Assembly (NCBI GenBank): GCA_910589415.1
Contig: OU342635.1
Location: forward strand, 1,488,001-1,552,000
Source of the DNA: Malachius bipustulatus
Lineage: Eukaryota; Arthropoda; Insecta; Coleoptera; Melyridae
Reading direction: 5' to 3'
Length of the DNA stretch: 64,000 bases
Below are positions 22,332 through 64,000 of the stretch, in pieces; within the stretch, counting starts at the first letter, position 1, and each line of letters begins with the position of its first letter. The translations under genes were made by a program, and so were the position numbers. The notes under the pieces are model-generated. The model had not been told where the DNA came from. It did no database searches and worked only from the letters and a program-made list of their open reading frames with translations.

Positions 22332-24269
22332 ATGCATTTCAAATTGTTCTCTCTCGCTTTGGTCTTCGCTTTCGCCAGCGCTGCCTTCCTGGGTGGTAAG
22401 GCCATCTCCGTTCAAGACGATGGTACTCAAGTCAGAATTGTCGACCAGCGCACCGGTAGGGAAGTCGTTATCTACAGAGAAAGTGGTGTAGCATACGAAG
22501 TAACAGTCGTAGGACCTGTTGTTGGTGTGAAGACACTCCAGATCAATGATGTTCAAGGTTAGTTAATTCTTATAGTTCTTTCTATGCCTAGATACTAAAA
22601 AATTTGTATGCTTAAAGGTGGCAGAATTGTAACAACTCTTCTTGCCGAGAACCAAGGAATCATCGGTGACGTAACCTACGAGCAGGTCCTCAACACCATT
22701 GAAAGACAAGTCCAAACTGGAAATGTGCACCCTAAATTCGCTCAAGTCTTACGTCTCTTGAGCAATAACCAGCTTACCTTCGGAGAGCAACAAGAAATTG
22801 CCAGCATCTTCAACAACGAAATCATCGACAGACCTGCCGTCGAGAAAGACGTAGTTGTCGGTGATTTATTAGACAAAGAGTTGACTATTGATGCTTTGAC
22901 CAAGACTAATGCCGCCAGCCAGAGAATCCAAAACACTTTATCTGTAGACAAGAAAACTCAGTTGGAAAAGGAGGCTCTCGTTAAAGACATCTTGAAAAAA
23001 CTGATCAAAGTACATGCCATTACGCAGATCCAACAAGAAATCGAGGTTACCAAGGACTTGCTCAGAAGTCAAGTTCAGCAACAACAACAGCAGATCAACA
23101 CCGGATACTACAACTTCTATCAGACCGGTGTCAGCAGACAAGCTACCTCCCAAAACATCTACAGGAAACTGGCCAAAATCGAAGCACTCACTGAAGCCCA
23201 ACAGAAGATCCAAGTTGTCAAGCAAGTCCTGAAACAAGAGATCGTGCAAAACCATGTTCAACTGACTGGCCAGGCTGGCGAACAAGAACTTCAGATCCTT
23301 CTCGGTCGTTTCGGAATCCAGCAACAATGGGGTCAATTATCTGTCGAAAAACAAATCGAAATTGCCCAAGAGGCTCTCGTCGATACCGTCTTGAGAAAGC
23401 AAGCCAAAATCGAGGCTCTAACACAAGTACAGCGTGAAATCGAAGCAGTCAAGGAAATCCTCAAGAGGGAGACCCTCAGGCAACAAGTTAACTCTCAAGT
23501 AGGTAGCACTGCCGGCCTCCAAGTTCCCTACGGTTTGACCGGCCGTCTTGGAAACATCCTCGAAGCCACAGATGAAAACATCTTAGACGCAGAAACCAAA
23601 ATCCAAGCTTTGATCGAATTGCAACAGAAAATCGAAGCCACCAAGACTGTTTTGAAGAGACAAGTTGCTCAAGAGAAACAACAGCTCAATAATGTCGCTT
23701 TGTCCGGTCTACAAGGACAGAACTGGGGTATCGAGGGACAAAACTGGGGCCTACAAAGACAGATCTACGGTCTTCAACAACAGAACTACGGTCTTCAAGG
23801 ACAACAGTGGAATCAGCCAAGACAGAACTGGGCTGCCTTGAACAACTTGGAACGTGAGCAGGTACCATTCATCTACCAAACTCCTTCTGTGTGGAATCAA
23901 ATCAGATACAGCAGCGTCACTCCCTATTACAGTGCCGGAGGCTTCTCCGGAAATTTGAGGTAAATTACTAACTGAAATTTATTTTCAAATACAGGCAAAA
24001 TAGGTATTGCAGGGAAATAAATATATCGAAGTCAAATTTCACCATTGAAGTGTCAAGAATATTTTTCTTGTAATGCAACAAATATTTTTTATTTTATTGA
24101 AGAGATGAAATAATTCAAGTAATATTAATTTGGTATAGACAATGACAAACAAACTACTCTACTCTAACCTCCTTATTTCTTTTCTAGAGGACTTCAACAA
24201 CAACCTTGGGGTCAGCCAGTTACGATTCAACAGCAATTACTAGGAAACCAGCAAGGATTACTAATCTAA
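22332..24269 (+). CDS. Secreted Gln-rich coiled-coil protein (cluster member A)
   Basis: Exons 22332-22557, 22618-23959 and 24188-24269 give 549 residues. Exon 1: signal peptide (MHFKLFSLALVFAFASA) and the shared module ending VVGPVVGVKTLQIND. Exon 2 opens with the shared block LLAENQGIIGDVTYEQVLNT ... GNVHPKF. It then has four coiled-coil modules at about residues 204, 260, 336 and 402, each like KIEALTEAQQKIQVVKQVLK and rich in Gln, Glu and Lys. A Gln/Trp/Tyr repeat region (GQNWGIEGQNWGLQ type, ~440-475) and a C-terminal TPSVWN motif follow. Intron phases are 1 and 2. The longer frame from 22311 is not used because 22332 opens the signal peptide. Poly(A) signal near 24322. A secreted fibrous or storage protein is inferred; no known family was recognised. 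Confidence 0.88.
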
Positions 24270-24442
24270 GTACCACCACTGTATACTGATAGTTGCTATA
24301 TTATGGTCTAATTCGTTGCAAATAAAGCATTCTCATACATAACTGAGTTTTATTAAGTTTATTACAAAAATAAATTTAATATATAGGTAGCCATACAAAA
24401 TTTATTATGACAGTGTACAAGAATTAAAAATTAGTATACATG

Positions 24443-25194
24443 TTATATGTACGTATAAATGATAATAATAATTATAATAGAGCAGTAAGAATACTGCAAA
24501 ACTACAATTTGTCCGACGCTCAAACTAGGAGCTTTGTCATTTAGTATGAAAGTTCCTGGCTTTACTTTTTTTTCGTAGGTACGGTGTGTCACTCCCAAAG
24601 TTCGCGATTTTCTTCTTTGATATTCTTGAATTATGTGTTTTATTATCCTCAATACTAGAAATACTAGAAAGTAGCTAAAGCATCTCTTTTAATAAAAAAA
24701 ATCTCATTAAACTCTTTCACTTGCGCTTTATCAAAAAAGACGCCCTTTATGTCTTTACTACTGACGTTCAGTTTTCCTATTATGTTGAATCCACAAGAAC
24801 TTTCAATGAAGTAGCTGAAGTTCACTCCCTTTGTACCATAGAATGTTTTCGAATTGAAGTAGATTAATCTCTTCCAAGACAAACAACCCCGGCGATATTT
24901 CTGGAGCATCAATTTTGTATTCACACAACGTCGGGTTGTAGAAGCGTATCTCGCAGAGTCCATCGCGCGTGTCGGGTATGTGAATTTTGCTGTAGTGTAT
25001 TCCCGTATGTAAGACGTATAGGCTGCTATTAGATATGCTACAAAGCACAACAGCATTCCTAGAGCCATTCTTTGGATAGGGGTGACGCAGAACTTTCGCT
25101 TGTTCCATGAAACAGTAGAATAAGAACCAAACCAGTTAGCGGAGCGAAGGTGTTCACTTGTTTTTGTAAAATCTAGAATTTTGGATGTGGCCAC
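24443..25194 (-). pseudogene. Possible frameshifted membrane protein, unidentified
   Basis: Two overlapping minus frames look protein-like in different parts. One starts MATSKILDFTKTSEHLRS (25194) and has a hydrophobic segment MALGMLLCFVAYLIAAY. The other, 24803-25108, reads EIRFYNPTLCEYKIDAPEIS and FVLEEINLLQFENILWYKGS. The first frame resumes as CGFNIIGKLNVSSKDIKGVF and stops at 24664. A single protein would need two frame changes, so this is either a recent pseudogene or a gene with sequence errors. Family not recognised. Confidence 0.3.
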
Positions 25195-25429
25195 TCAGTG
25201 TGTACACCAGAGCATACCAAACATCTCCCAAGTTGCTTAGCAAACCGTTTGCAAAGAATGTTGGTAAAAATAAACAAACCAATCGTAAAAATGATTTAAT
25301 TTCCTCAACAAAATTGGGATTATTTACACGGATAGACGGGACATCGCATCTACGGCTACTGAAAAGGCGAACTTGTTGGCGGAAGTTTTTTCTTCATAAT
25401 ACTCTTCCGTCCACTTTCAGGGAAGAACT

Positions 25430-27034
25430 CCACCAATGATCCCTTCCGTGAAGCCCAAAATTTCAGACATTGTTTTCCGACAGCGTGTCATAAAGCGCAT
25501 TATGTTAGCCATAGACCCAAAAAAAGCTTCTGGGCCTGATGACGTACCTGTTATCGTGCTTAAAATATGCGCCAATGAGCTGTTATCCGTTTTCTGATGT
25601 CAACTTTTCAATCTGTCGTATAAAAAGAGAATATTTCCTTCTTGCCGGAAATGTGCACGGATCCAACCTATTCCCAAGAAAGGCAATAAGACTATTAAGA
25701 CTGCTTTCAGTAATATCCAAGATTATGGAGAAAGCTACTAACCAAGCTAATATAATCAGCGACCGCCAATACAGATTCCGCAAACAGAGATCAACTGGTG
25801 ACCTCATCACTTACGTCACCGAGCTGTGGAACGCCGCAATCGAGCACCATGGGGAGTCTCGAGGGGTTGCGCTTGATATTTCTAGAGCTTTCGACCTTGT
25901 CTGGCATGATGGACTGTTGGTAAAACTGCAGGCTTATGGCATGCCCGAGAAGTTCTGCTTGTGGCATGCGAGTTATCTCGGAGATCGCTCATTACAGGTG
26001 GAAGTCGATGGAGTTCTTTTCCATCAATGCCGGTGTTCTTCAAGGATCCATTTTATCTCCGACTCTCTTTCTAACATTTATCAACTACTTGCTTGAAACA
26101 ACAAAAAATCCAATATACAGTTTTGCCGACGACAGTACACTCATATCTTCTTATGCGACCTTAGATGCGCGAACATCTGCCATCGACGCACAGACTCGCA
26201 GGGAGCAAGAAGTTGCCATACTTAACAATGACTTGCAAGACATTCTAGCTTGGGGCGATAGAAACCAAGTCCAATTCAATGCTGGAAAAACCCAAGCAGT
26301 CATCTTCTCCAAAAAGGCCAACGTTTTGGAGCCAGATATGATAAATGCGGGACACTCCCTTTACTCCATCGGCATCTCTTCGTTTACTTGGAGTGAGCTC
26401 CGGAGCGAACATGTCTTGCCATGATCATGTTGCAGGTCTGGCGAAGAGTACTTCTCAAAAACTTGGAATACTCTTCCGCACGAAGAAATTTTATACACCA
26501 CAACAGCTTCTCCTCTTATACAAGGCTCAAATCCGACCATCCTTGAAGTACTGCTCACATGTTTGGAACTCAGCTCCTAAACATACGCTGAGATTACTCG
26601 ACTCTATTCAGAAAAGAACCATCCACTTGATTGGGGACCAAGATTTGACAAAAAATTTAGACACTCTCGAACATCGAAGAAGAGTAGCTGACCTGAGTCT
26701 GTTTTACAGATATTTTAATGGAAGGTGTTCAAAAGACGTGGCCCGCTTGATCCCACCAAGAACAAGACCGGGCAGAAATACACGTCGAGCCGCAGACGCT
26801 CATCCATATCAGGTTCAGCTCGTTACACCTCGTACCACCCTATTTATTCAGACTTCTTTTATGTATAGAACCGCATCATTTTGGAATAGCATTCCAAAGG
26901 GCGTGTTTCCCGAAGTATAAAACCTACAGCGATTCAAGGCCAACGTGAATCGACATCTCCACTCATGCACCGCTCCCAGAGCGTCATAGGGATTTCCCTG
27001 CAGTGCATGTGCATTTTCAATAGAAAAAAAAAAC
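25430..27034 (+). mobile_element. Jockey/I-type non-LTR retrotransposon, 5'-truncated and frameshifted
   Basis: Reverse transcriptase text in shifting frames: KKASGPDDVPVIVLK (~25520), DRQYRFRKQRSTGDLITYVT, GVALDISRAFDLVWHDGLL, FSINAGVLQGSILSPTLF and the active site SFADDSTL (~26120). A C-terminal part follows (LFRTKKFYTPQQLLLLYKAQ, YCSHVWNSAPKHTLRLLD). Frame changes occur near 25600, 26030 and 26390. It ends with a short poly(A) at ~27022-27034. Endonuclease and ORF1 are absent, so it is a dead 5'-truncated copy. Confidence 0.8.
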
Positions 27035-27359
27035 AGTCATTGTCATTCTCACACTGCAAATTTATTGACTTAAGATGTAGTAGATTATACCTAATAATTA
27101 TAAAAAAAGTAATTTAAATTGTGAAAGAATTCAAGAATTGTATTCGATCAAATTTTAAAAGAATTAAGCAAAATGATTTTCTGGTTTTCGATGATGACTT
27201 TGCTGACCAGTTTAAGCTAATGTACTTTCCTTTTTGATCCTAATTGCACGTAAATTAACAGAACTCAAAGCACTGATTGCTCTGCTGCAGAGGCTTCCCC
27301 CATTTATGGTTTTATCTGAAATTTCCACTGGAATTTTCACATTTAAATCCTAGACTTGA

Positions 27360-27740
27360 ACACAGAAGAACAATGGCGCATGTCTGTCAATTTTTGGAAA
27401 CAAATGAACCAAGTACGTGACTTTTTGACTAATAATTTGGATGCTGAATGTTTAATAAAGCCTACATCACTCAATCTAAAATGTTGGAATATTTAACGTT
27501 GCAAGAGAAAAATTTATTACAGCCTATTATATGCTGGAACATGGCCAAAGTGAAACATCCGCGAATTTGTCAGACCGTGCAATCAAGTGCTACAGTTGCC
27601 AGTTGTATTGTAACAGAACGAGTTTTTCCAAATTGTTCATACATAAGTTCACTCCAAAATCAGAAATCGGTTAATATTTGACCGATCTAAAAAACTGTTA
27701 CCTACATGTGTATTATTCTTAAAAAATGAACTGAGTTAAA
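27360..27740 (+). pseudogene. hAT-type transposase C-terminal (dimerisation) remnant
   Basis: Reads through frameshifts as CWNMAKVKHPRICQTVQ, then SCIVTERVFPNCSYIS and IGLIFDRSKKLLPTC-like text. This matches the pattern W...YP.L..A...L.IPATS..SERVFS..G....RN.L of hAT family C-termini. The Ser of SERVF is Thr. Only this end remains. Confidence 0.5.
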
Positions 27741-27932
27741 TAAATGAACAAAAAACTGCCTTTTTCGTTCCTTACTCAACCGTATTTAACATTATTTCCA
27801 GTCCAGATAATTGCAATAAAATTCTGAAAAAATTTGTATTGTTTTTTGTTTATTTACATTCTTTATATACGTTCTTTATGTTCTTTACATTTTTTACCTG
27901 CAAAGAATCGTGTAAAGAATAGAGCTAAAATA

Positions 27933-28933
27933 TACAGGGTGCACCATGTATCCTGCTCTATATTGCTATCTCTTAACTTTAACAGATACAGGGTCGGTTA
28001 AACAAGTCCAAAGAAGCGCAATTTTGTGGCCATCTCGAATCAGTCGAGACATACAAAATATCTGTGACCGTTCCTGAAATATCCTGAAAAAACTGAAAAA
28101 TCGAGATTTCTTATCTTTGCCATATCTTTTTTATTATTGGAGATTAATAAATAATTTTTTGTAAGCTTAGATAAATCGGCAAGAGCTACCCATCTGACAT
28201 TTCAAAAATTTTCAAAGCCGACTAGATCCCAGAATTTTCATAGTCAACTTTCGTTTTTCTTATAGCCACCATATTGTATGTTTATGTTGTTCGATATAAA
28301 AAAATCATTTAAACTAAAAATGGTTAAACTTCAAAAAATTAATTAAAAAAATTTTTATCTTCTTTTTTCTTTACAAAAAAGACAACTTTTAAGACCGAAT
28401 TTCATAGATAAATTAAAAAACCATAAGGCAAGCACTATTTCGGCGTATTTTACAAATGTTGACGTTTTTCGACGATTTTGTTTTGGGTTTTCTTTGAAAA
28501 AAGAAGAATAAAAATTACAAAATTTTTTTTTTGAAGTTTATTAATTTTTGGTTTCCATTATTTTTTTCACATCGAACGACATAAAAAAATAATATGGCGG
28601 CCATAAGAAAAACGAAAGTTGACTGAAAACTTTTGGTTCTAGTCGGCCTTGAAAGTTTTTGTAATGACAGATGGATAGATCTTAACGGCTTATGTAAGCC
28701 TACAAAAAATTATTTATTAATTTTTAATAATAAGCAAGATATGGCAAAAATAAGAAATCTCGTTTTTTTCAGTTTTTTCAGGATATTTCAGGAGCAGTCA
28801 CAGATACCTTGCATGTCTTGACGGATTCGACATGGCCACAATACTGCGTATCATTTCTCTAATTTAACCAACCCTGTATCTCTTGACGTTCAGGAGATAG
28901 CAATATAGAGAAGGATACATAGTGCACCCTGTA
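27933..28933. repeat. Fold-back element, family 2 copy 1 (~1.0 kb)
   Basis: Starts TACAGGGTGCACCATGTATCC and ends with its inverse at 28933. An internal second boundary tacagggtcggttaaacaag lies ~55 bp in. The two ~450-bp arms are imperfect reverse complements. A second copy is at 47505-48451 and a diverged relative at 62455-63010. No coding capacity. Confidence 0.85.
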
Positions 28934-31335: not shown

Positions 31336-31339
31336 GGAC

Positions 31340-32459: not shown

Positions 32460-33925
32460 TTGACTTAATCCAGTTTTTGGTCGAAAACTTTTAGTGCTCA
32501 AAGTCACTCACATCACCACTTTTGAATGAACCACAAGAGCAATGGACTTTCATGTCACCGAAAACTAAAATTGAGAGCTTCTAGATTTAATTTTTTTCTT
32601 CTAAAGAAAAAAACAAAACACGACAGATGCACATGCAAACACTAAATAAGCTAAACTACGTCCTAAAACCAGTCGGTGCATTATCAAGTTGATAAACCTC
32701 GAATTATTGCAGCAACATTGATTTGAACCCCATGCAATAAAATATTGAAATTCGATACATTGTAATAAATATACTGCACATCCTTTTCCTGTATCTGTTT
32801 TTGTTTTGTCTGGGCTGGGAAGGTGTGCCGACTTGATAAACTCTCACTGCTCGCCTAAATTCGCTATCAATCTGGTGTTTTGGGCATTTTGAAACGACTT
32901 GACTGATTTCGCTCAGATACAATACCAGAAATGGGTTTTTGAGAATTTTGAAAAGGAAACCTGTAAAAGCTACGTGACCTTCGGAAATTTTTTAACGCAA
33001 GTTTTTAACGAAGAAATTCAAAATTTCTTGTAAAAAGCTTTTAACAGATAAGCCTATAAGAGCATTTAGAAAGCCGAAAGCTGGAAATTTGTCTGAAGTA
33101 AAGTTTATAAAGAATATTTTCACCATTTTGGGTACTGGCTTTCTGTAATTTTTCATGGTCGTGCTATATTATCGTAATTGTATACATATGGATATTATGG
33201 ATATAAAATTAATATAAGAATTAAGCAATTTCGCCTCGTTTCCCATACACGCCATTGGATAACAAACTTTAAAAATGCATTTTTTACCCTCCTTGAAATT
33301 CGAAAAAAGTTGTTCCCGTACTGTTAGGTACTTGACTTTCAAGATTATTTGTTTCAGCTTGCTGGAACAGGGGATAAAAAAATTCAAATTTTTACGCAAA
33401 TTCATATCGTCGCCACTTTGAAATACCTCCACCTGGCATATAAACAGAATTTTCGTCTTGAAGAGCTGCTACTTTTGAGGTAAAGACCGATTACAGAAAA
33501 ACAAATAGCAAACAATTTGCCATATCTTAAAATTTAGTTATCGGCGAAAAACTGGATTCCACAGCATCCACAACTTCCATACAAGAACTGCAAAGCGTAA
33601 ACAAAAAAGTGTATTCCAAACAATATTGACACCGTGCCAACAGAGATAATTCTGTGCAGTTACCATATGAACATTTATTATCATGTTTACCGCGTAAGTA
33701 ATAATTATATTATTCAACCAATTAATAATAAGATAAAGACAATTAACACAATCAATTATGTTTTGAGTTGACCACACATTTGAAAAGCAAAAACTGGATG
33801 GAAAAAATTGACCCCGCTGATCTTGACTTATCGCAGCTCAACTACCTATGTACGTAATCGAACATAGTAATCGAAGGACATTTCCAAATAGGAATTTGTG
33901 CATTGCAAAATCCAACGAAGATAAG
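32460..33925. other. Intergenic, no gene seen
   Basis: AT-rich. From about 33685 to 33860 it is similar to 40945-41110, showing that the duplication of the Met-rich gene includes at least 300 bp of upstream DNA in more diverged form. Confidence 0.4.
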
Positions 33926-33931
33926 AATATT

Positions 33932-33976
33932 GTATATAATCCCACTGCAACTCTAGTTTCGGCACATTTAGTCTGA
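33932..33976 (+). promoter_or_regulatory. Core promoter of Met-rich gene B
   Basis: tatataat at 33933-33940 and an initiator-like ggcacatttagtctga at ~33961-33976; ATG at 33996. The Inr block matches ggcacattcagt of gene A and ggtacacttagtccga of gene C. Confidence 0.55.
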
Positions 33977-33995: not shown

Positions 33996-35484
33996 ATGCA
34001 TTTCAAACTCTTCTTTTCTCTCGTCGTTCTCGGCTGCTGTTCAGCCAGCTTGATCGGTCAGAAACTACTCACCGTCAACCACGATGGTTCCATGATGGGA
34101 ATAATGGCCCAGAATGGCATGAAGATGGAAATTATGGTCAACCAGATGATGGGAATCAACTCTTATGATGTTATGATCACTGGACCTCACATGATGACCA
34201 AAACCCTCCACATCAACGACAGAATGGGTAAGAGATGATTTTATTCTTCTTATTTTTTTTTATAAAATCAACCAATTTCTATAGTGCAATTCACATTTTA
34301 TATAAAAAAAATTGTTTTCATTCTTATTAAATTTTAACGCGCAACTTTCTTACTTACATTTCGCTTCCCTAAATTCTCAGGTGGTCAAGTCTTGGCCGAC
34401 TTATTCATGAAACACGAAGGCGTCGTCGACGAAATGACTTTCGAGAGGATGTTGTACAAAATTGAAATGTACGTCGAGCAAGGTATGATGGACCCCAAGA
34501 TGATGTTCGTCTTCCAAATGCTGAACCACGAAGAGCAGTCCTTCTACAACAGGGATCTCGATATGTACCTCCAAGACATGCTCTCCAAGCGTCAGTTCGG
34601 CGGTATGTACAGAACAATGCACCCAATGGGAATGGCCATGTTGAACAAGGAAGCTCAAATGGAGGCTGTCGTAGAAGCTGAGAGGGAAAACGAATTAACT
34701 CCCCGTATGATGATGGGCAACCAAATGATGTTCCGTCCATATGCTATGAACTACGAAATGAACACTCCCTCAGTCTGGAACAGAATGATGAACTACAGAA
34801 CCATGATGCCATACACCACCCAAAGGTAAGTTCGATCCAACTACTCATAAAGAAATTAAACCTAACGTAGTTAGCTACTTCCACAGGGGAATGGAATCAA
34901 CCATGTTGAACAAAATGATGAACCGCAAAATGATGGAACAACAAATGGAAAACCAAATGGAACACCAAATGATGACCAAGGAAATGATGATGAACCGCAT
35001 GGGAATGAACCAGGAAATGAACAACCAAATGGAAAACATGATGACTCGTAAGATGATGAACCAGATGGAAAATCAATATGAAAACGAAGACAAGGAAATG
35101 CCTCTTGGAAAGAGAATTTTCATTAAGAAAATCGAAGTTGCCCCCATGCACCAAATGAACAAAGAGAACATGGACAGCATGGACAACATGGACACCATGA
35201 CCACCATGGGAATGAACAACCAATTCTGGAACAGTGAGTTTACCTTTTTTTAAATCTTATCCTCCCCTTGTTTTTCAACCCCTGTTAATGCAGGAACTTA
35301 TATCTGATGAACGGTTTCTTTTCTTCCAGACTACATGATGAGGAATCAAATGAACAAGATGAACAACATGTTCTACGGACAGACCCCGGCCAACTACTAC
35401 GGATACCCCACCACCCAAAACAACATGTACATGCGCACGATGCGAATGCCAATGATGATGCGTATGCAAAACATGATGTACTAA
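33996..35484 (+). CDS. Secreted methionine-rich protein (cluster member B)
   Basis: Exons 33996-34227, 34381-34825, 34887-35233 and 35330-35484 give 392 residues (phases 1, 2, 1). Signal peptide MHFKLFFSLVVLGCCSA; exon 1 module ends MITGPHMMTKTLHINDRM; exon 2 opens with the shared block LFMKHEGVVDEMTFERMLYK ... PKMMFVFQML. A TPSVWNRMMNYRTMMPY motif corresponds to TPSVWN of gene A just before the same phase-2 intron. Exon 3 is extreme: 22 of its first 60 residues after the Arg-Gly junction are Met, in units like MEQQMENQMEHQ. Exon 4 is Met/Tyr/Asn-rich (YYGYPTTQNNMYMR). Strongly duplicated in gene C. Exon 3 lines up with the VEQQIEHEVEKEVE segment of the Tyr-rich gene, suggesting Met replaced other hydrophobics. 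Role not known; structural secretion or Met storage are both possible. Confidence 0.88.
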
Positions 35485-40460: not shown

Positions 40461-41215
40461 AGAAAACTAAAAGTATGACAAAAAATTACGCTTAAACCAC
40501 ATTTTTTCCATGATAATAAACATTTACCAATTTTTTGACCAGGCAGACAGACAGACAACCAAGTCTTTGTTTTTTACGGAACCTGGAAGATTTAAAGCAA
40601 GATTTGAAATGCAAGGGTATAGATAAGTTTTATATATGAATGCAAATAAATCAGGGACTACATTTACCTATTATTGTTATTCAGCGTTAAAAAGTACTTA
40701 TGTTAAAAGTCTATCAAAATGCGTCAAATAATCATCACAAATCAAAATTTACAAATCTATAGGTACCTATTAAAACGGCGGCAGAGTTTTTTGGTCCCAG
40801 GTTCTTAAAAAACACACTTTTCTCCTTCTCATTTCTATAATTTGGCTTAAAAAAAAAATTTTCTTTGTTATACCTACACATAAATGGTCCCATACTAGCC
40901 TTGCTTAAAGAGATAACTTTATTTGTTTAGTTTCATTATTATCATGTTTACCGCATAAGTAAAAATTATGTTATTAAACTAATTACTAATTAGTAATAAG
41001 ATAAAAACAATTAATACAAAGTACATTATGTTTTCACTTAGCTACAAATTGCAAAAGCAAAAATTAAATGGAAAAAATTGACCTCGCTGATCTTGTCCTA
41101 TCGAGGTTCAACTACCTATGTCCGCAATCGAACCAAATAATAAATTGACATTTCCAAATAGGAATATCCTTTCTGTGGAAAACAGGATTGTTACAAAATT
41201 CGAAAATAAAGATAA
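40461..41215. other. Upstream region of gene C
   Basis: 40945-41160 is homologous to 33685-33905 upstream of gene B (gtttaccgcataagta..., ttgacctcgctgatcttg..., cgaggttcaactacctatgt). No separate gene. Confidence 0.45.
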
Positions 41216-41222
41216 CATTTCA

Positions 41223-41268
41223 GTATATAACATCACGGACTCTCTGGTTACGGTACACTTAGTCCGAC
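41223..41268 (+). promoter_or_regulatory. Core promoter of Met-rich gene C
   Basis: tatataa at 41224-41230 and an initiator-like ggtacacttagtccga at ~41253; ATG at 41286. Much of the flank differs from gene B, but these two motifs are kept. Confidence 0.55.
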
Positions 41269-41285: not shown

Positions 41286-42721
41286 ATGCATTTCAAACTC
41301 TTCTTTTCTCTCGTCGTTCTCGGCTGCTGTTCAGCCAGTCTGATCGGTCAGAAACTACTCACCGTCAACCACGATGGCTCCATGATGGGAATAATGGCCC
41401 AGAATGGCATGAAGATGGAAATTATGGTCAACCAGATGATGGGAATCAACTCTTATGATGTTATGATCACTGGACCTCACATGATGACCAAAACCCTCCA
41501 CATCAACGACAGAATGGGTAAGAGATGATTTTATTCTTCTTATTTTTTTTTTATAAAATCAACCAATTTCTATAGTGCAATTCACATTTTATATAAAAAA
41601 ATTGTTTTCATTCTTATTAAATTTAACAGCAACTTTCTTACTTACATTTCGCTTCCCTAAATTCTCAGGTGGTCAAATCTTGGCCGACTTATTCATGAAA
41701 CACGAAGGCGTCGTCGACGAAATGACTTTCGAGAGGATGTTGTACAAAATTGAAATGTACGTCGAGCAAGGTATGATGGACCCCAAGATGCTGTTCGTCT
41801 TCCAAATGCTGAACCACGAAGAGCAGTCCTTCTACAACAGGGATCTCGATATGTACCTCCAAGACATGCTCTCCAAGCGTCAGTTCGGCGGTATGTACAG
41901 AACAATGCACCCAATGGGAATGGCCATGTTGAACAAGGAAGCTCAAATGGAGGCTGTCGTAGAAGCTGAGAGGGAAAACGAATTAACTCCCCGTATGATG
42001 ATGGGCAACCAAATGATGTTCCGTCCATATGCTATGAACTACGAAATGAACACTCCCTCAGTCTGGAACAGAATGATGAACTACAGAACCATGATGCCCT
42101 ACACCACCCAAAGGTAAGTTCGATCCAATTTTCCATAAAGAAATGAGACATAACGTAGTTATTTTCGCAGGGGAATGGACTCAACCATGTTGAACAAAAT
42201 GATGAACCGCAAAATGATGGAACAACAAATGGAAAACCAAATGGAACACCAAATGACCAAGGAAATGATGATGAACCGCATGGGAATGAACCAGGAAATG
42301 AACAGCCAAATGGAAAACATGATGACTCGCAAGATGATGAATCAGATGGAAAATCAATATGAAAACGAAGAGCCTCTTGGAAAGAGAATATTCATGAAGA
42401 AAATAGAAGTTGCTCCCATGCACCAAATGAACATGGACAACATGGACACCATGACCACCATGGGAATGAACAACCAATTCTGGAACAGTGAGTTCAAGTT
42501 TTTTAAAATCTTATCATCCCATTGTTAATGCAAAAAAATATCTAATGAACAATTTCTTCTTTTTAGACTACATGATGATGAATCAAATGAACAAGATGAA
42601 CACCATGCTCTACGGACAGACCCCGGCCAACTACTACGGATACCCCACCACCCAAAACAACATGTACATGCGCATGATGCGAATGCCAATGATGATGCGA
42701 ATGCAAAACATGATGTACTAA
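41286..42721 (+). CDS. Secreted methionine-rich protein (cluster member C), paralogue of B
   Basis: Exons 41286-41517, 41669-42113, 42171-42487 and 42567-42721 give 382 residues. Exons 1 and 2 encode virtually the same protein as gene B (one Met to Leu change is visible, PKMLFVF against PKMMFVF). Intron 1 is also almost identical. Exon 3 lacks 10 codons in total relative to B (30 nt, in frame) and has several substitutions. Introns 2 and 3 differ clearly. Exon 4 again ends MMMRMQNMMY. The longer frame starting 41118 is rejected because it runs through the promoter and destroys the signal peptide start. Poly(A) signal near 42762. Confidence 0.88.
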
Positions 42722-54915: not shown

Positions 54916-55118
54916 TAGAAAGCTTGTTCTTCATAGGCTAAGTTTTCACAAGATTTTAAAATGTTGGCCCTAAATTTTAAAAGGTCAAGTTAAGCGGGTG
55001 TTTTAAAATGAAAAATTTGAAATTTTTGAGAAAAATAGGCTCATAAAGGGTTTTATAAATTTCCTGTCCCCACCATCCTGTTAAATCAATTTCAGAGTGT
55101 GTTCAACCTTTCATTTAC

Positions 55119-55856: not shown

Positions 55857-56089
55857 TAGTGGGATTAAAAAAATATAAGTTTTTACAAAAATTAAAATGG
55901 CCCACTTTGAAAAAACATTTTTTCTTCTACTCCTCTTCTACATTTTCTCTTCTGTATCGTTTCTACCGTTTCTACCATACGAGATTCTAGTGCCCCAAAG
56001 TTTTCTCAATATGGTGGCAGTGGCGGCTCGTGGATTGCAAAGTTAGTGAAGTGTATAGAGATTCTACACAGGACGAGGTAAATTCAGCT

Positions 56090-56600
56090 CAAAAATTCGA
56101 TTTTTGCAAAATTCCGGTCAGCTAGGGTCAACTCTTGGGATATTTTTTTGCCGCAAGTTTGCAGAAAATCGATTTTCGCCAAAGGCAGTCAGTTTGATTT
56201 TTTTTCTTGACAAGATCCAGTCAGTTCGAATTTTTTTTGCAAGGTCAATTTTTTATGCATATTTTTTAAAAGAAGAAGCTCAAAAAAGCTCCAATTTTCT
56301 GACTAACCGCACCTTGAAAATTTGCAAAAAGCGACCTCACCAGAACTTGTGAAAAAATTCGAGCTGACGGAATTTGAAAAAAAAAAATCCAGCTCACTGG
56401 TTCTAGTTAAAAAAAAAAACGACCTGACAGTAACTTGTAAAAAAAAACCGCTGACCGTTATTGTCAAAAAAATACAGTATCTTGTCAAAAAAAAATCGTG
56501 ATTATCGGAACTAGTAGAAAAAATTGAGCTGACCGGATTTTGTAAAAAAAAATTGAGCTGACCGGAATTTTTTAAAAAAAATCGAGCTTACCTTTTTCTA
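56090..56600. repeat. Array of ~28-bp units in opposing orientations
   Basis: 56090-56270 contains units like ttttgcaaaattccggtcagct. 56290-56600 contains the inverse units (agctgaccggaattttttaaaaaaaatcg), repeated about ten times with drift. This makes a large imperfect palindrome. Confidence 0.6.
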
Positions 56601-57300
56601 GCCCAATCTTACCACAACAACAAAAAACAACTAAAACAAAAAAAAAAGGAATAGACTTCTCACTTTATATATTTTAATTATTCTTATTTCCACATAAAAA
56701 TTTCCATTAAAAAAAATTATTAAATATTACTGATGAGAGAAAATTTTAATAAGATTTTTCCAGTAATTAAAAAATTCATTTTTTATTTAGAAAAACTGAA
56801 ATGACACTTGTCCCCCCCCCCTTACTATTTATAATTTAGGTGTGAAAAGTTGAATTTTATGCACGAATGTACAAATTTGAAAATCTCACATTTAGAAACT
56901 GAAATATTGAGTGCGAAAAGTTTGTCTTTTCAGACATAAGTAGGAAAACATCATTTTCTCACTAAGGATTTTTGTAAATTCAACCGAAAAGTTGTTTTTT
57001 TATTTAATGACCTCCAAAACAAAACCAAAGCTGTTACATCTATTCCAGATTATTACAAATAAATATTAATAATATTATGTATTTCAAAGTACAGAGGTCA
57101 GGATTTTTTGTAAGGTTTAATCCGCCCAAAATCTGTCATCAATGCCAAATCAGGCATCATTACCATTGTTACAATAAAATGCAAAAATAGTTTATGATAT
57201 TTTATTGAAAAATTTTGATATGTTTATTGTACAAAAATATTTATTAAAAAATTATTTGATATTCCAAATTGTGCTTCAACTGCAGGCAGTTTTCTTAGCT
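56601..57300. other. 3' flank of gene E, no gene seen
   Basis: AT-rich. Candidate poly(A) signals for gene E (tttatt on +) lie at ~57222 and ~57239. Confidence 0.4.
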
Positions 57301-57336
57301 AGTTCTTCTCGCTTGTTTTTTCAAACCGCTGTTAGC

Positions 57337-58674
57337 TTAATAACGACCAAAATAATCTGGAAAGAAACAACGGGATTACTTGATCAATTTTCTTATTCAA
57401 TATTCACTTATTGTAGGACTAATAATTAAAAAACCCTTACCGCCGAATTGTCCTTGGCGACCATATTGGTTGAAACCTTCATACTGATGTTCATACTGGG
57501 TTGGGGTGATGGATTTCTCGAAATATTTAGCGAATTTCATGGTTGGGGTTCTTTGGCTGTTGTATCCGTAGTGGGTGTTTTCCTGACGGTTTTCAACTTC
57601 TTTTTCGACTTCATGTTCAATTTGTTGTTCAACATTGTATTTATTCAAACCAGTGTTGAATCTATAAGACAGAAAAAATAAAATATTTCAATTTTTGCAT
57701 GTCATTTTTTTTTAATAAAACTTGAAAAATTATAATTACCTTTCGTAATAGTTGTTGTATTTGCCACCATAGGGGTAGTGAGTCTTGTATTGAGCGTTGT
57801 CGTAGCTGAATTCGTTCTGGTTCTGGTAGTAGTTGTTGTATTTTCCACCATATGGGTAGTGGGTCTTGTACTGGAATTCGTTCTGGTAGTAGTTGTTGTA
57901 TTTGCCACCATATGGGTAGTGGGTCTTCTCGAACTGCTGATAATAATTGTTATATTTTCCTCCATAAGGATATTGAGTTTTGTAGAAAGCGTTGTCATAG
58001 TTGACTTGGTTCTCATATCCATGACCCTGATAGGCGGAATAAGGGTAGTTGTTGTAGTAGTTCTTGCCGTAGAAGTTCTTGCCGTAGAAGTTCTTGCCGT
58101 AATAGTTCTGGAAGTAGTTCTTTCCAGACACACCGTATGGGTATCTGAAGCTCTTGCCGTAGATTCCGTAGAAGTGATCGTCACCATGGACCTCACCGTC
58201 GATTAAATGTTGGACAGCCTCCACGTCGAAGAGGGTCTGGAAGAAGAAGAACACTTTGGGGTGGAGATCGCCTTGCTGGACGTAGCTCTCGATCTTGTAG
58301 AGGATCTTGTGGAAAGTGGCGTCGTCGATGGCTCCCTGGTACCTTACGCACAGATCGAAGATGACATCACCGGCTGAAATGAGGAGAATTTAGCTTAGAA
58401 AGTGAAAATTATTGAAGTTGAGTGGAAACTTACCGATCTGGTTGTTAAGGTGGAATGTTTTGTAGAAGTTGGGGCCGGTGAGGACGACCTGGAAGTCCTT
58501 GAGACCGTGAGTGCCGTAGTACTGGTTCTTGATGATTTCGAGATTGAAACCGTTGTCGGAGACTACATGGACGTAGGTGCCGTCATCGCTGACAGTGATG
58601 TACTTCTCGCTCTGGTAAATGGCGGCTGAGCAATAGCCGATGGCGAGGAAAGCGAAGATCAGTTTGGCGTACAT
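57337..58674 (-). CDS. Secreted tyrosine/glycine-rich protein (cluster member E)
   Basis: Exons 58434-58674, 57740-58373, 57441-57661 and a 20-base last exon 57337-57356 give 371 residues (phases 1, 2, 1, as in B and C). Signal peptide MYAKLIFAFLAIGYCSA. Exon 1 module ends VVLTGPNFYKTFHLNNQI. Exon 2 opens AGDVIFDLCVRYQGAIDDAT ... YVQQGDLHPKVFFFFQTL, the shared block. It then has YGKNFYGKNFYGKN repeats and four copies of a THYPYGGKYNNYYQ unit. Exon 3 carries VEQQIEHEVEKEVENR, then YGRQGQFG. The last exon adds DYFGRY and stop, matching the FGRFGRY end of paralogue F. Exons are markedly G/C-rich at third positions compared with surrounding DNA, suggesting strong expression. Tyr/Gly repeats suggest a cross-linkable secreted fibre, glue or cuticle-like material (inference). 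Confidence 0.87.
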
Positions 58675-58702
58675 CTTGGATCGTTAGCAAGTAGGTACTT
58701 CG

Positions 58703-58747
58703 ATCTGAATGATGCCGTTTGATGAGAAGATGGACATTTTTATATGA
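58703..58747 (-). promoter_or_regulatory. Core promoter of Tyr-rich gene E
   Basis: Minus strand: catataaaaatg (58736-58747 on +) then an initiator cattcagatc (~58702-58710), then ATG at 58674. Same TATA to TCAG spacing (~30 bp) as genes A to D. Confidence 0.6.
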
Positions 58748-58749
58748 TT

Positions 58750-59185
58750 TTTTTATCTGGTATCGTCGTTCGTCTACCCTATAGGAATATTTTTACTTGA
58801 TAGGCGCTTGTTTTGTAACACATATTTAATTATTTCAGTTACACTTAATGGAATATTAGAATGAGTTTATTAAAAGAGTAGAGGTTATCTTCAGATTTAT
58901 ACCTTTCAAACGTTCGTAATAATTATCTTGTTGTTCGAAGATTTCTTTAGCTCACGCAGTTACTAGCGGTAATGTCGATAATTTTCCATTCCGTGCATTG
59001 GTGCTAGTGTTGATTAGTTATTGTTTTCGTCTGGAAGATTTTGTTTCTGGATAACTGACTTCAGAAAGATTTCTCAATTTTTAATATGTCTATTTATTAT
59101 GATAATAGAAAACATTATTAGTTTTTTTTTTAGAGTGATTATACTAACTTACAAAAATAAATATCTTAATTCAATTAGGTATGAA
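58750..59185. other. Upstream of gene E, no gene seen
   Basis: AT-rich; no recognisable element. Confidence 0.35.
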
Positions 59186-59189
59186 TATT

Positions 59190-59765
59190 TTCGCTTTTTT
59201 TGACATTGGCTTAATGAAATTTTTATGGCTCTATCATATTTGCAAAATTGAGTTTATAAGAACATAGAAAATTAGTAATTTTGACCGACTTTTCACCTAG
59301 GCCACTGGTAAACTAATGACTAAAACGCAACATTTTTGACACGGTCTATAAATCGAGATACGTTCTTCTTATTCTGTTAATTTGAGCCAAAAAAATTATT
59401 TACTTTTGTATATACAGACGTTAAAAAAATACAATTTTTTATGAAAATTCAATTAATCGCCATTTTGAAACGACTAGACCGATATTTCTCAAATGCAATA
59501 CCAGACAACTCCCTCCAGACATGTAACTATTAGGTACAAAATTTTCACTTCCCTAGATTGCAATTTACGACCTATAATCGAGTGAAAAAACGAGTTTTTT
59601 CGAATTTCGAAGAGATTCCCCTGTAGCAGTAAGGCGACTTTAGGAAACATTTTCAACGAAACCCCAAAACCCTCCATGGGTTCTGCAAGACTGCATAATT
59701 TCATGTGTAGGGACATTTTAAAAATCAGAAATTTTATACAAGGTGTTTCAAAACATTTGCCGAAA
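59190..59765. repeat. Dispersed repeat, family X copy 3
   Basis: Contains acgcaacatttttgacac, gatacgttcttcttattctgttaatttg, gccattttgaaacgac and tttctcaaatgcaata in the same order as copies at 48480 and 54190. Confidence 0.6.
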
Positions 59766-60390
59766 ATGAAGAGTGCAATTTTCTGACTTGTTCTAAGAAA
59801 AAAATTCCTATATTAACATCGGTCCGCAAATGTATCATTTTTGAGACAGGGTCTCAAAAAAAATCTCTTTTTTACTTTTTTATACTATATCTCAGCAACA
59901 GTTTGAGCTACAGAACCCTTCTTTTGTGCATTGCTTACCATTGATATTACCTACTTTTGTAAAAAAGTAATGTTTTTGTCCAACATGTTGCTACTTTTAT
60001 GTTTTTCATCATAAAATGGTTTTTTCTCGAAAACGGTTCACATTAAAACTTTTGACCGAGAACACCTTTTTTACTTAATTAGGGGCAAAGAAATTTCAAG
60101 CAACCTCACAATCTCCGCCACTGCTATTTGAAATAAATATAATTAGAACTCAAAAAGTCGATAATATTAATGATAAGATGTGTACAAAAATTCAGTTTTA
60201 TATCTCAAACGGTTCCTGAGATATCATCAAAAAACTAAATAAAAAAAAAATTACACCCTGTATCTCGAAAACGGTGGGTTCGCTGGCCCATAGTTAATAG
60301 GATTTTTTCTCAGAACGCGCCAAGGAACCAAAATTTTTATTTTCTCAAACATGTTTTGGAGCACTCTGTACTTTGGAGAAATAACCATCG
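59766..60390. other. Intergenic repeat-like DNA
   Basis: Holds phrases common to fold-back elements (gtatctcgaaaacggt, ttacaccctgtatctc near 60250) but no complete inverted pair was traced. Confidence 0.35.
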
Positions 60391-61281
60391 CACAGGGTGT
60401 AACGCATAAGAACCGAGACAGAGCAGGGGCGTGTGTGTAGGGGACCCCAAAATATGGTGATTTAACGCAACTTATCTCTACACTAAGTTGCACCCCTGAT
60501 AATTTATAGACCTTAAAATTGGGGCTTCAAATTTCGAAAAAAGCTCAGAAATTATACTTGAACTTGGAAAAAAAAAACAAATTTTTGTACACGTTGTGTT
60601 ATTTTACGGGGAACTTAATTCTCAAACTTTTATTTCTCTTATTACTTTTCAAAAAAATTTGTAGTTTACAAAATATCCCGAAAAACTAAAAAAAGCAATA
60701 ATTATGTTATTTAAAATTATCGAAAATTCAAAAATTGGGTTTAATTTAAATGTTAAAGTTGACGATCATCAAGAAAAAAGTTCAATCAAAAAGATTTTCG
60801 AAAAATTACAAAAGAAAAAATTTTGAGAATAATTTTTTTTCGATGATTAGATTGAGGTCCATAGTTTGTTTAGTTTTTCAAATTTTTAATGAAAACGACA
60901 AAGTTTTTCGAAAAATAATAAGATAAATAAAAGTTTTATAATTAAATTCCCCATAAAATAAAGTAATAATGTCTCAAATTAGCCAACGGGTTCAAAAATT
61001 ATGTAACATTTTAAGGATGCATCATCCCTTATCAACCCTTCAAATCAACTCCACTTACCGTCAATGAATGCTCTTGGTCTACACTCACAGCGTATACCAA
61101 AATTGTTTTTCTAAGTTCAAGTATAACTATGAGATATTAATTTTTTTCGAAAATTGACATTTCACTTTCAAGACCTATAACTTCTCATTATGCAACTTAG
61201 AATGAAGATAAGTTGAGTTAATAAGTTGGGGTCATCTACACGTCCCTGCTCTTTGTTGGTTCTAATGCGAAACACCCTATA
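60391..61281. repeat. Fold-back element, ~890 bp
   Basis: Left end cacagggtgtaacgcataagaacc...gagcaggg.cgtgt (60391-60480) is mirrored by ctacacgtccctgctctttgttggttctaatgcgaaacaccct at 61236-61278. Inner words such as acgcaacttatctctacactaagttgca are also mirrored (~60467 and ~61190). The middle is AT-rich. Confidence 0.7.
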
Positions 61282-62450
61282 TAAAATTCTTAATTAACCC
61301 CCCAAGTTCTACAAGATTTCAAAACTTTATACAATAATAATTGTCTTGGGCCGTTTTGAAAATCGAAAATTTGAAATTTGTAATCTCTTATATTAACATA
61401 AAACAGTATCGACCAAGAAGCTGATGGCATCCGTAATATAGGTACGGGAGAAATTTTTATTTTTCATTTGACAAAAAAATACTTTGAGGGCAAAAAATCC
61501 CTGCTTGCTTGAAAACTTATCTTACCCTAATCAGGTATAAACAAAGTGTGTTTTATTTACTGAGAAAATAGCGTTTTTCGTAATTGAAAAAAAACTCCTT
61601 TTTTCAAAAATTTTCAAAAACTAACCAAGATTTCTATTTGGTTTTCTTACAGTAGGTACTTATGACAATTTAATCATTTGATGATACTCAAAAACACAAA
61701 AAATGACGAAAAAGTAAAACTTGTTTAGTTTCCGAAAAACCAGTTTTATGTTTTTCACAATTTCGAAAAACACCCCCGGTAAATAAAAATCACTCTGTAT
61801 ATCTATCTGTCGAGGAGGGTAAAATAAATCTTCAAACTAACAGAGAGAATTTTTTGCCCTCAATTTTTTGTACAAATCAAAAAAGCGAGTCTTGAAAGGT
61901 TCAAGTTAATAATAGCCGTTATGGCCAGAAGAAAATGATATTTTCTCTACGATTTTTGAAAAAAATCCTCATACATCTTTAAAAATATTATGTCTTGATA
62001 TGAATGTATGTTTATTTGTTACGGCTAGCTTGTATGCACTATTAATAAAACAGACTGACAGTTAAAAGTTCAAACGAGACCGCAATAATTGAGTGCGATC
62101 GTGCTACTTCGTTTGATTTTCGAAAGTGTTCGTGTCATGATCGTCTAATGTGTTATTTCGTTCGGTATTGGGGTGTTTAAAACGCGTATTATTACCACGT
62201 TCATCAGTATGCCGTTATCTCCTGAACTTGTTGAGCTGGAATGTAATCAGCAGGAATGAACGTTTTACTCAATAACGGAGAAAAAATTTTCCCATATAAC
62301 ACATTAGTAGGTAACTATACACATCGGTTTTTTATTTCCCTCATTATTGAAACCTCAAGAACAAGCAAAAATACAGCGTCGATTAAATTAGATGAAAGTT
62401 GCCTGATTTTATGTTCAGTGATTATTAGGAATCTGAAACAAAATTTATGT
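61282..62450. other. Intergenic, no gene seen
   Basis: AT-rich. 62040-62250 is less AT-rich and could be an old transposon end. The small frame 62256-62519 is unsupported. Confidence 0.3.
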
Positions 62451-62454
62451 AAAC

Positions 62455-63010
62455 TCCGGTTGTTGATGAAATATACTGGAAAACTGAAAAATCGAGATTT
62501 CAATTTTAGTTTTGTGTAGGTTTGCATAAATTGTCATCAGATTATATACCTACATCTGCCATTTCAAAAATTGTCAAAGCATCTGCCTTATTGTTTTCTC
62601 ATGACTTTCGGTATCTAAAGGGGAACACCAAAAATTATTTAATTTTTTTTCACACAAAAAAAACAAAAATGTTTTCACTGAATGTCGTTAATATGAACTA
62701 ATATTAAGTAATAAGCCTTATGTTTTTTATTTTTATTTTCCATAACATTAGCTCAAAAATTGTGATTAAAAAAATTTTTGAAATGAGGAAATTTAGAATT
62801 TTTTTTAATTTTTGGTTTCCTTGATATTTTTATATAGGATGACATTAAAATAATGGCGGTCATGCGGAAAACTAATATTTATAATGAAAATTCCATGACC
62901 TAATCGGTTTTAAAAATTTTTCAAATATCAGGCTCTTGACGATTTATGGAAGCCTAAAAAAATTATTTATCTTTGACACTCAAAAAGATATCCGGCTAAA
63001 AAAAATAGCG
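62455..63010. repeat. Diverged, shorter relative of fold-back family 2
   Basis: Shares aactgaaaaatcgagatttc, gccatttcaaaaattgtcaaag, then the inverse half atggcggtcat.cggaaaactaa, atgacctaatcggttt, aagcctaaaaaaattatttat, in the same order as 27933-28933. Confidence 0.6.
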
Positions 63011-63014
63011 GTTT

Positions 63015-63195
63015 TTCACAGTGCTTTCCTGGTGTACTATTGTTAATAGTATCGTGCTCCGGGAGGTACGTTAAAAAGGGGGTCCCGGCTGCTTCACAGC
63101 AGTCGTTAAGTTACGTCAGAGGCCCTTGGGCTACTTGAAAACTTCTGACACTTGGGCTTTACCACAGCCATAAGATATTTATTTATTTATTGTTA
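63015..63195 (+). mobile_element. RTE-type non-LTR retrotransposon 3' end
   Basis: The segment ctccgggaggtacgttaaaaagggggtcccggctgc...cagcagtcgttaagttacgtcagaggcccttggg...ctgacac.tgggctt, followed by an ATTT/TTATT simple tail (63176-63195), matches the conserved 3' UTR style of insect RTE elements. No coding part remains; strand is inferred from the tail. Confidence 0.5.
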
Positions 63196-63525
63196 ATAGT
63201 TTGAACTGATGAGCTGAAATTACAGCGAAACATTCATCAACACCACCAGACCATCTGATGTTGTGGCATACAGAGAACTTTACTGTTGTTCAATAATATG
63301 CAGGCAGAAGACGTATCATTTTTTATAAACAAATCATTTTTACAAATAAAACAACTGAATATTTTTTTATATAATTTATTGATTGCAAATTGGAAGCGAA
63401 ACTTCTAGATATGTAATCAAGGCACGATGTCAGTCTTGGTTTTCTCCATTTTGAGTGAGCTAGTAAAAACTCAAACAGCTAGCTTCTCTTGATTACCCTA
63501 AACATTTAACAAAGCAAAGATTCAA
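63196..63525. other. 3' flank of gene F
   Basis: Poly(A) signal for gene F (tttatt on +, i.e. AATAAA on -) near 63374. Otherwise no gene. Confidence 0.4.
63203..63231 (+). other. Hammerhead-like motif with defective stem III
   Basis: Contains ctgatga, a perfect stem II (gctg aaatta cagc) and gaaa, but what follows (cattcatc) does not form a proper stem III plus cleavage triplet, and no matching stem I was found. Probably a decayed ribozyme or chance. Confidence 0.3.
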
Positions 63526-63529
63526 CAGC

Positions 63530-64000
63530 TCAATAACGGCCGAAACGTCCAAAAGATCCACCGAAGAATCCCTGGCGGGCGTATGGGTTCAGTCCGTAGA
63601 ATTGCTGGGCCCTGGGGGCGGAGAACCGGCTGCTGAAAGGAGAGTATTGGGCGAAAGGCACTCCCTGGCTGTAGTAGTTGTTGTACAGTTTGCTGTCCAG
63701 TTTCTGTTCAACTTCCTGTTCAACTTCACGTTCTACTTCATGTTCGATCTGGCTTTCCAAACCGTACTTGTATTGAGCTCCGTAAGGGTAGGTTTTGTAG
63801 AGGGCGCTCTCGTAGTTGAATTTACCTCCATAGGGGTATTGGGTCCTGTATAGGGCGTTTTCGTAATTGAAGAGTTTTCCGTATTGTTGGCCCTGATAGG
63901 CGGAATAAGGGTAGCTGTTGTAGTAGTTCTTGCCGTAGAAGTTCTTTCCGTAGAAGTTCTGGGAGTAATCCTGTCCGTAGACACCGTACGGGAATCTGTA
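63530..64000 (-). CDS. Secreted tyrosine-rich protein (cluster member F), cut by the window edge
   Basis: The C-terminal 156 residues are visible, continuous from 64000 to the stop at 63530-63532. The text begins YRFPYGVYGQDYSQNFYGKN and includes YNSYPYSAYQG, then repeats TQYPYGGKFNYESALYKT. A charged segment LESQIEHEVEREVEQEVEQK follows, and the end is FFGGSFGRFGRY. It aligns along its length with gene E but has no intron where E has two. Exon bases are again G/C-rich at third positions. The N-terminal module and signal peptide must lie beyond the right edge. Confidence 0.85.
   Translation of the reverse strand, partial: YRFPYGVYGQDYSQNFYGKNFYGKNYYNSYPYSAYQGQQYGKLFNYENALYRTQYPYGGKFNYESALYKTYPYGAQYKYGLESQIEHEVEREVEQEVEQKLDSKLYNNYYSQGVPFAQYSPFSSRFSAPRAQQFYGLNPYARQGFFGGSFGRFGRY

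Follow-up and report, generated by a model that had tools for sequence, protein, structure and literature searches.

How can neighboring genes that open on the same secretory head encode proteins as unlike in composition as a Gln-rich, a Met-rich, a Cys-rich and a Tyr-rich one, and what would such a set be for? The question is raised by a 64,000-nucleotide stretch of the genome of the beetle Malachius bipustulatus (contig OU342635.1, here C13, positions 1488001-1552000; 'the window'), which carries six such genes, labeled A to F. An earlier account made from the letters alone (the sequence-only reading) had described the six as a birth-and-death family that keeps a secretion head and swaps its material tail, as components of silk, adhesive or egg coat or as amino-acid-specific storage proteins. 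The analysis reported here points to a gene plan that most members inherited, with composition drifting upon it. The genes belong to a family of secreted beetle proteins of the hemolymph type, which probably also includes the mealworm 56-kDa protein. The favored explanation, to which a probability of roughly 0.45 is given, is that the products are larval hemolymph proteins specialized by amino acid, for storage and perhaps as a capsule coat, with the mechanism inferred.

The six candidate gene models were built by hand, and all of their junctions are GT-AG by script check. Each has a hydrophobic N-terminus, a signal peptide and strand-rich module 1 encoded by exon 1, an intron 1 in phase 1 and a module 2 that opens exon 2; the sequence-only reading had described the signal peptide, the two modules and the phase-1 intron in five of them and had assigned F by its E-like tail. 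The computed percentages (Table 1) likewise bear out the divergent compositions claimed there: Gln in A, Met in B and C, Cys (with His) in D and Tyr in E and F. Gene F starts 649 base pairs (bp) past the window edge, and its in-window part is exon 2 at 63530-64000. Whole-genome searches (544 Mb in 52 contigs) with the heads of D, F, J and L as queries bring the total to at least 15 members at three loci: nine (A-I) on C13 at about 1.510-1.576 Mb, three of them outside the window (G and I on the minus strand, H on the plus strand); five (J-N) on C13 at about 11.064-11.096 Mb, 9.5 Mb from the window cluster; and O on C1. Fifteen is a lower bound, because no single search matched all 15 and only the best candidates were scored; beyond these genes the head searches gave two weak places, at C1:36266128 (E 0.16) and C16:18940345 (E 0.78). 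The arrangement of three plus-strand genes pointing at three minus-strand genes holds inside the window, and the convergent pattern is an effect of the window edge, since the cluster extends past it. Exons 3 and 4, the members outside the window and the features shared inside the tails are additions to the earlier account.

Intron 1 is in phase 1 in all 15 genes. Intron 2 is present in 11 (phase 2 in 10 of them, phase 1 in K) and intron 3 in seven, always in phase 1; both lie within the tail-coding part. In D, F, G and J the gene has just two exons. Several members are near copies of one another: C is a close paralogue of B (97.4% amino acid identity), G is a near-identical copy of F, and M and N in the second cluster are copies of A (93.6 and 93.3% identity). 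The enriched residue is Gln in A, M, N and K, Met in B and C, Tyr in E, F, G, I and J, and Cys with His in D; L is an 802-residue protein rich in Leu, Asn and Asp. A, M and N contain 14.9-15.9% Gln, no Cys and 0.5-0.7% His, with a calculated mass of 61.0-62.3 kDa and an isoelectric point (pI) of 7.7-8.9, and A carries coiled-coil-like KIEALTQ.QREIE repeats.

The shared head was analyzed through profiles. Hidden Markov models (HMMs) of both modules recover the six window genes (exon 1, E 7e-40 to 2e-26; exon 2, E 2e-34 to 7e-26), which is a consistency check only, because the models were built from the same genes. As independent support, a profile search matched ladybird proteins absent from the profiles (E 3.4e-10), and hhalign aligned an exon-1 profile of nine family members with the ladybird alignment at a probability of 98.3% (E 1.9e-14); exon 2 was compared by HMM search alone. 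The sequence-only reading had named failure of such a profile-profile comparison as one refutation of a common system, and for the exon-1 module the comparison did not fail. All seven named homologues that were found are ladybird proteins, and none has a functional name. The signal peptide and module 1 are common to Cryptolaemus HHI36_008219 (P0001), Coccinella LOC123313652 and LOC123314357, and Harmonia LOC123681015, LOC123681023 and LOC123681019. Module 2 is present in P0001-P0005; the exon-2 HMM found none in P0007 (Harmonia LOC123681019), and the seventh match, P0006 (Cryptolaemus HHI36_008221), lacks both modules. The ladybird tails are rich in Ile, Leu, Gln and Asn and are predicted to be helical in a low-confidence model. 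The possibility that module 2 is repeated in these tails received no support from the exon-2 HMM test.

Structure prediction of the head, which had also been suggested, models module 1 as five antiparallel strands (11 sequences; mean predicted local distance difference test score, pLDDT, 69; strand blocks 57-85). Module 2 reads as three helices in the P0001 model, which has low confidence (pLDDT 37) and was used for secondary structure only. Fold searches with the exon-1 module gave no convincing relative, and a structural match to the CPAP/TCP10 domain was not believed. A Pfam scan of seven of the 15 members returned no family at its cut-off, a whole-protein search with A alone had no scored candidate at E<=0.001, and a PDB sequence search with F returned no meaningful match (best E 0.12). 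In the head tree, J groups with the ladybird proteins (support 89/93), and D and L are the two longest branches. An insert with a basic stretch (NKRS in J, RYRRS in P0001) separates modules 1 and 2 in these two proteins and may be a proprotein cleavage site; A, B and F align without it.

Whether the tails were inherited or exchanged was evaluated by comparing tail pieces of A, B, D, E, F, H, I, J, K and L, with the near copies C, G, M, N and O left out, against 300 composition-preserving shuffles each; pairs with z scores below 5 were not counted. Eleven of 159 pairs reach z>=5.0, a level matched by none of the 300 shuffles. Two of these join E with F, which belong to one class, and nine reach more widely between genes, including links across composition classes: A-K (z 10.5), A-I (9.1), A-H (8.1), B-H (6.6, exon 3) and B-I (6.2). 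A PS-[VF]-W-N-type motif occurs in eight of the 15 genes (degenerate in N and O), 17-26 residues before intron 2 in seven of the eight, and K combines the KIEAL repeat of A with Gly-Tyr-Gln repeats. No link at z>=5 was found for the D and J tails, exon 4 of B and H, the exon 2 tail and exon 4 of K, or either piece of L. L keeps the intron phases, with a best tail link of z 4.4; D and J have neither the later introns nor a tail link. Because these links exceed the shuffles and the intron phases are mostly conserved, A, B, E, F, H, I and K with their close copies share what is, by these comparisons, a single gene plan kept while composition drifted. Tail swapping, as the sequence-only reading had it, is accordingly rejected for most members, in which the later intron phases are mostly kept and, in B and C, the head has shifted in composition along with the tail; D and J show no such link.

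The D tail consists of five repeats of the form C-x2-CC-x3-C-x(n)-C-x3-C-x(n)-C-x-C, which contain 40 of the 42 Cys residues. A search with three of these repeats matched no other gene at E<=10, a longer query gave a single weak match with stops on C1, and a comparison with solved structures returned no meaningful match (best E 0.031, mostly to His-rich stretches).

The ratio of nonsynonymous to synonymous substitution rates (dN/dS) was calculated for close pairs: B/C 0.18, A/M 0.19, A/N 0.27, M/N 0.38, H/O 0.22, E/F 0.31 and F/G 0.06. By these values (0.06-0.38) the seven close pairs are under purifying selection; the distant pair E/H gives 0.28, and H/I is saturated. In each of the seven pairs the tail has a higher dN than the head, and tail dN is below dS in six of them, the seventh, F/G, having no synonymous tail changes. 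Of what had been proposed, the supported part is a single gene family with a conserved head, secreted by way of its signal peptide, whose recent and old duplicates are under purifying selection. As a separate observation, the F and G genes look alike by eye in intron and upstream sequence, and their synonymous differences number eight in the head and none in the tail, as if gene conversion had evened the tail.

Composition is not confined to the tails. Met makes up 18.3% of the head in B and 17.4% in C, and 0-2.6% in the other 13 genes; it occupies positions that elsewhere hold Val, Ile, Leu, Phe, Tyr, Arg, Gln and others. Across 10 class representatives, deviations in head composition correlate with those in tail composition (r 0.42, with 5 of 20,000 permutations as high). 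The correlation is 0.27 without B (41 of 20,000) and 0.27 without B and D (89 of 20,000). Met enrichment through the B/C head and this correlation argue for storage rather than material. They bear in this way on the rival that the sequence-only reading put first, in which the genes supply the parts of a solid material that is secreted (silk, adhesive, egg coat, or an oothecal or cuticular layer) and have an assembly head in common. Compositional specialization is common in secreted materials, and the Gly/Tyr/Gln-rich repeats of K, E and I favor such a product. As a side observation, K resembles Gly-Tyr-Gln proteins that self-associate. The drift of the B/C head along with its tail speaks against it, as does the Pfam result, in which no family at cut-off in the seven scanned members means no silk, chorion or cuticle domain. 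In the same members there is no Chitin_bind_4 domain (RR-type cuticle proteins), and the genomic matches listed for that domain include none at the three family loci. A further argument against a solid material is that the presumed mealworm relative is listed in larval extracts and that transcripts of the longhorn (Anoplophora) relative are very frequent in the larva. Overall, a solid material is judged improbable, and silk, adhesive and egg coat are left without positive evidence beyond composition, while the amino-acid-specific storage that the sequence-only reading also named fits best.

The promoters were then compared across the family. TATA[AT]A lies upstream of the ATG in 14 of 15 genes, O having TATAAC; it stands 52-70 bp before the ATG in 13 genes and at -129 in K, where it probably sits behind an intron in the 5' untranslated region (random 105-bp stretches, 12%). 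In 13 of 15 genes a GATAA in the same orientation precedes the TATA, starting 10-13 bp ahead in 12 genes and 21 bp ahead in A. For comparison, GATAA occurs at -30 to -6 in 31 of 543 background TATA sites (5.7%), which were taken from two family regions and include most of the family promoters. The enrichment has a binomial p of 6e-15 for the 15 genes, which are not independent, and 5e-9 for the 10 class representatives (8/10), in both cases with a distance range picked after inspecting the promoters. Within the window, GATAA-N(3-9)-TATAWA occurs six times, against a shuffle mean of 1.56 and with six or more in 1 of 100 shuffles; three of the six belong to the B, C and E promoters. The presence of GATAA before TATA in 13 of 15 genes suggests co-regulation. 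In insects, GATA factors are active in fat body, hemocytes and midgut, and this is the background of the fat-body reading of GATAA; a search of the open-access literature gave no paper that connects GATA and fat body with a TATA-box promoter and a storage protein.

These promoters also bear on the possibility that the family has several unrelated functions, a duplicated secretory head being followed by relaxed tails, with D (8-Cys repeats) and L in other jobs. D and L have no GATAA element and the longest head-tree branches, the D repeat matched no other gene, and the D and J tails stand apart in the shuffle comparison, all of which would fit. The promoter module is nevertheless kept in 13 genes and intron 2 in 11, and the tails of the close pairs are constrained. 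A scatter of unrelated functions is judged distinctly unlikely.

The link to a known protein comes from published peptides of the mealworm 56-kDa protein. The best window for the peptide EYQGVVDEAQYEK falls in module 2, at the same site, in all 15 family proteins; the top match (F, G and J) is identical at 7 of 13 residues, with a score of 43 that none of 2000 shuffles equals. Against ladybird P0001 the peptide is identical at 9 of 13 residues, again with 0 of 2000 shuffles as good, and 40 control peptides from other entries of the same published table score lower per residue than EYQGVVDEAQYEK. The signal peptide plus a module with an EYQGVVDE-type motif, by which the wider family is recognized, is found. 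In the narrow sense, the 56-kDa protein is Gln-rich, has negligible Cys and His and measures about 62 kDa, which applies to A, M and N. B-J, L and O are less Gln-rich or of different size, and K is excluded by its His content despite its Gln (Table 1). By these measures the other 12 genes are paralogues in the wider family and not the 56-kDa protein itself. Since a known larval protein of the mealworm seems to be a member, blood-borne storage or defense is more likely than silk or glue.

The same link raises the alternative of a cross-linkable coat or clot, in which the head would target or assemble on foreign surfaces and the enriched residues would be reaction partners in wound and encapsulation chemistry: Tyr for phenoloxidase or peroxidase, Gln with Lys for transglutaminase, His and Cys for quinones, and Met as a scavenger. 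Each enriched residue class has known cross-link chemistry, and the mealworm protein was reportedly recovered from injected beads. Its name, taken from encapsulation at an early stage in the title of Cho et al. 1999, favors a coat, as do the two genes in this genome whose copper site is read as prophenoloxidase-type. On the other side, an 86-kDa 'early-staged encapsulation' protein is diapause protein 1-like, and the cockroach allergens that it matches are those matched by hexamerin 2; for these reasons the 'encapsulation' name may mark abundance. Moreover, 22% Met has no obvious cross-linking role, and the Met enrichment of the head is left unexplained. A cross-linkable coat or clot is considered rather unlikely.

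Under the favored explanation of hemolymph proteins specialized by amino acid, the genes would share activation in one larval tissue under GATA control, most likely fat body, and the proteins would be secreted, kept soluble or assembled via the head, and accumulate in larval hemolymph. Many of the paralogues would be reservoirs of Gln (A/M/N/K), Met (B/C), Tyr (E/F/G/I/J) and Cys with His (D), drawn on at molt, metamorphosis or wounding. Their abundance in hemolymph would also lead the proteins to coat foreign bodies in the early phase of encapsulation. Several points weigh against this explanation. The mealworm link hangs, at the sequence level, on one peptide: GVPQYTVGQYGIPR and GVQTIGQLR (with its longer form) are unmatched in ladybirds, with 608, 1545 and 1901 of 2000 shuffles as good, and the GVPQYTVGQYGIPR and GVQTIGQLR stretches score only 17-21 against the 15 family proteins (without shuffles). 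Fat-body co-regulation is unconfirmed, because the nearest TATA of the hexamerin gene has no GATAA module (a GATAA-N6-TATAAA lies further upstream), and D and L do not have the element. H (-0.24), K (0.06) and P0001 (0.03) depart from the head-tail correlation, which common descent could partly explain; for that reason the correlation is support for, and not proof of, selection on amino-acid content. H, O and L are not strongly specialized for one residue, the Gly-Tyr-Gln repeats give K, E and I the look of structural proteins, and the gene models are predictions from sequence.

A more far-reaching version is put forward tentatively. It holds that beetles may have evolved a second storage system unrelated to hexamerins, in which one family is split by amino acid (Met, Tyr, Gln, Cys/His) and co-switched through GATA-TATA, selection on amino-acid content has been strong enough to bring even the head of the Met paralogue to 18% Met, and the hexamerins of this species have shrunk to one. 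If the favored explanation is right, the mealworm 'encapsulation' protein would be one branch of a family that differs mainly in the amino acid loaded, and the family would let selection on amino-acid content as such be followed as a natural experiment. It would also store Met, Tyr and Gln by a route other than hexamerins and include candidate major proteins of edible beetle larvae. Wholesale drift of composition on a conserved exon plan, of which the family would be an example, makes paralogues look unrelated in tail-based searches. No published description of the multi-paralogue family, its amino-acid specialization or the promoter module was found in the portions of the open-access literature available.

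Positions of the features are collected in Table 1, together with neighboring elements, some of them recognized by eye. The repeat (TCAGG)n is abundant in the genome, with 15,251 overlapping 30-mer matches on two strands and none for the reversed control; it is the telomere repeat in many beetles. A search for GH48 gave no match, either in this genome or in the control genomes.

Table 1. Genes, promoters and neighboring features, in window numbering unless a contig is given
Feature	Position	Strand	Details
Promoter of A	22250-22278	+	GATAA at 22250, TATAAA at 22271, spacing 21
Gene A	22332-24269	+	exons 22332-22557, 22618-23959, 24188-24269; intron phases 1,2; 549 amino acids (aa); Gln 15.3%, zero Cys
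Promoter of B	33920-33938	+	GATAA-N8-TATATA
Gene B	33996-35484	+	4 exons, phases 1,2,1; 392 aa; Met 22.2%
Promoter of C	41211-41229	+	GATAA-N8-TATATA
Gene C	41286-42721	+	4 exons, phases 1,2,1; 382 aa; Met 22.5%
Promoter of D	about 46187		TATA without preceding GATAA
Gene D	46135-44749	-	exons 46135-45898, 45827-44749; phase 1; 438 aa; Cys 9.6%, His 7.8%
Promoter of E	58739-58757	-	GATAA-N8-TATAAA
Gene E	58674-57337	-	4 exons, phases 1,2,1; 371 aa; Tyr 16.2%; YPYGGKYNNYYQ repeats
Gene F	64649-63530	-	exon 1 64415-64649, exon 2 63530-64224; 309 aa; Tyr 12.9%
Gene G	79434-80551	-	near-identical copy of F
Gene J	C13:11063763-11064926		two exons
Gene K	C13:11077903-11080671		Gln 24.2%, Gly 18.5%, Tyr 11.7%, His 6.8%; 60.3 kDa; YGQQYGQGVYGQQHG repeats
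MYND/SET-type gene (SMYD-like)	401-3830	+	by eye, left of cluster
Long interspersed nuclear element (LINE)-type element	6545-10494	-	overlapping frames of 988 and 356 aa; reverse transcriptase in the longer, by eye
Nucleolar GTPase (GNL2/3-like)	12170-17170	-	by eye, left of cluster
Degenerate minisatellite	18203-18799		CAGCCAATCAGATAAC-like units
Broken reverse-transcriptase-like frames	25515-26920	+	another LINE by eye, between A and B
Hexamerin gene	C7:44845910-44847773		hemocyanin superfamily
Neighboring gene pair	C16:38517500-38525753		hemocyanin superfamily

Two published larval proteins are among the closest comparisons for the family. The Tenebrio molitor 56-kDa early-stage encapsulation-inducing/-relating protein (BAA78480) appears to share the module-2 peptide EYQGVVDEAQYEK, and its listed 62,446 Da and pI 8.33 are close to the values calculated for A, M and N. 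The excerpts available report it as one protein and do not mention Met-, Tyr- or Cys/His-rich paralogues, clusters or a common promoter; it is also listed in mealworm larval extracts (PMC10350632, PMC6836238). The Anoplophora glabripennis homologue (EF583868/EF583869; 456 aa) resembles A, M and N in its signal peptide, 22% Gln and negligible Cys and His, by its published description. It was the top matched transcript in a library of one 5th-instar larva, with 22 of 599 expressed sequence tags (ESTs), followed by an arylphorin-like hexamerin with 19 ESTs that is called the second most redundant contig; two mitochondrial contigs, with 20 ESTs together, had been excluded beforehand from this ranking (PMC3011843). 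This larval abundance speaks for the hemolymph reading.

The hexamerins (arylphorins and Met-rich storage proteins) are secreted larval proteins that would be alike in the proposed role. Some are aromatic-rich and some Met-rich, and other beetles have several, a single hexamerin being low for a beetle. Three hemocyanin-superfamily genes were found in this genome (Table 1): the one hexamerin, on C7, and a neighboring pair on C16. As context for the storage reading, the search gave only this one hexamerin, and the C16 pair is read as two prophenoloxidases by its HHWHWHLVYPF, presumably a prophenoloxidase-type copper site. Genomic matches to the hemocyanin N and C domains, the two searched at genome level, lie on C7 and C16 only, and no hemocyanin domain was seen at E<=1 in the seven family members scanned against Pfam. 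The family described here would work like hexamerin storage without being a hexamerin member.

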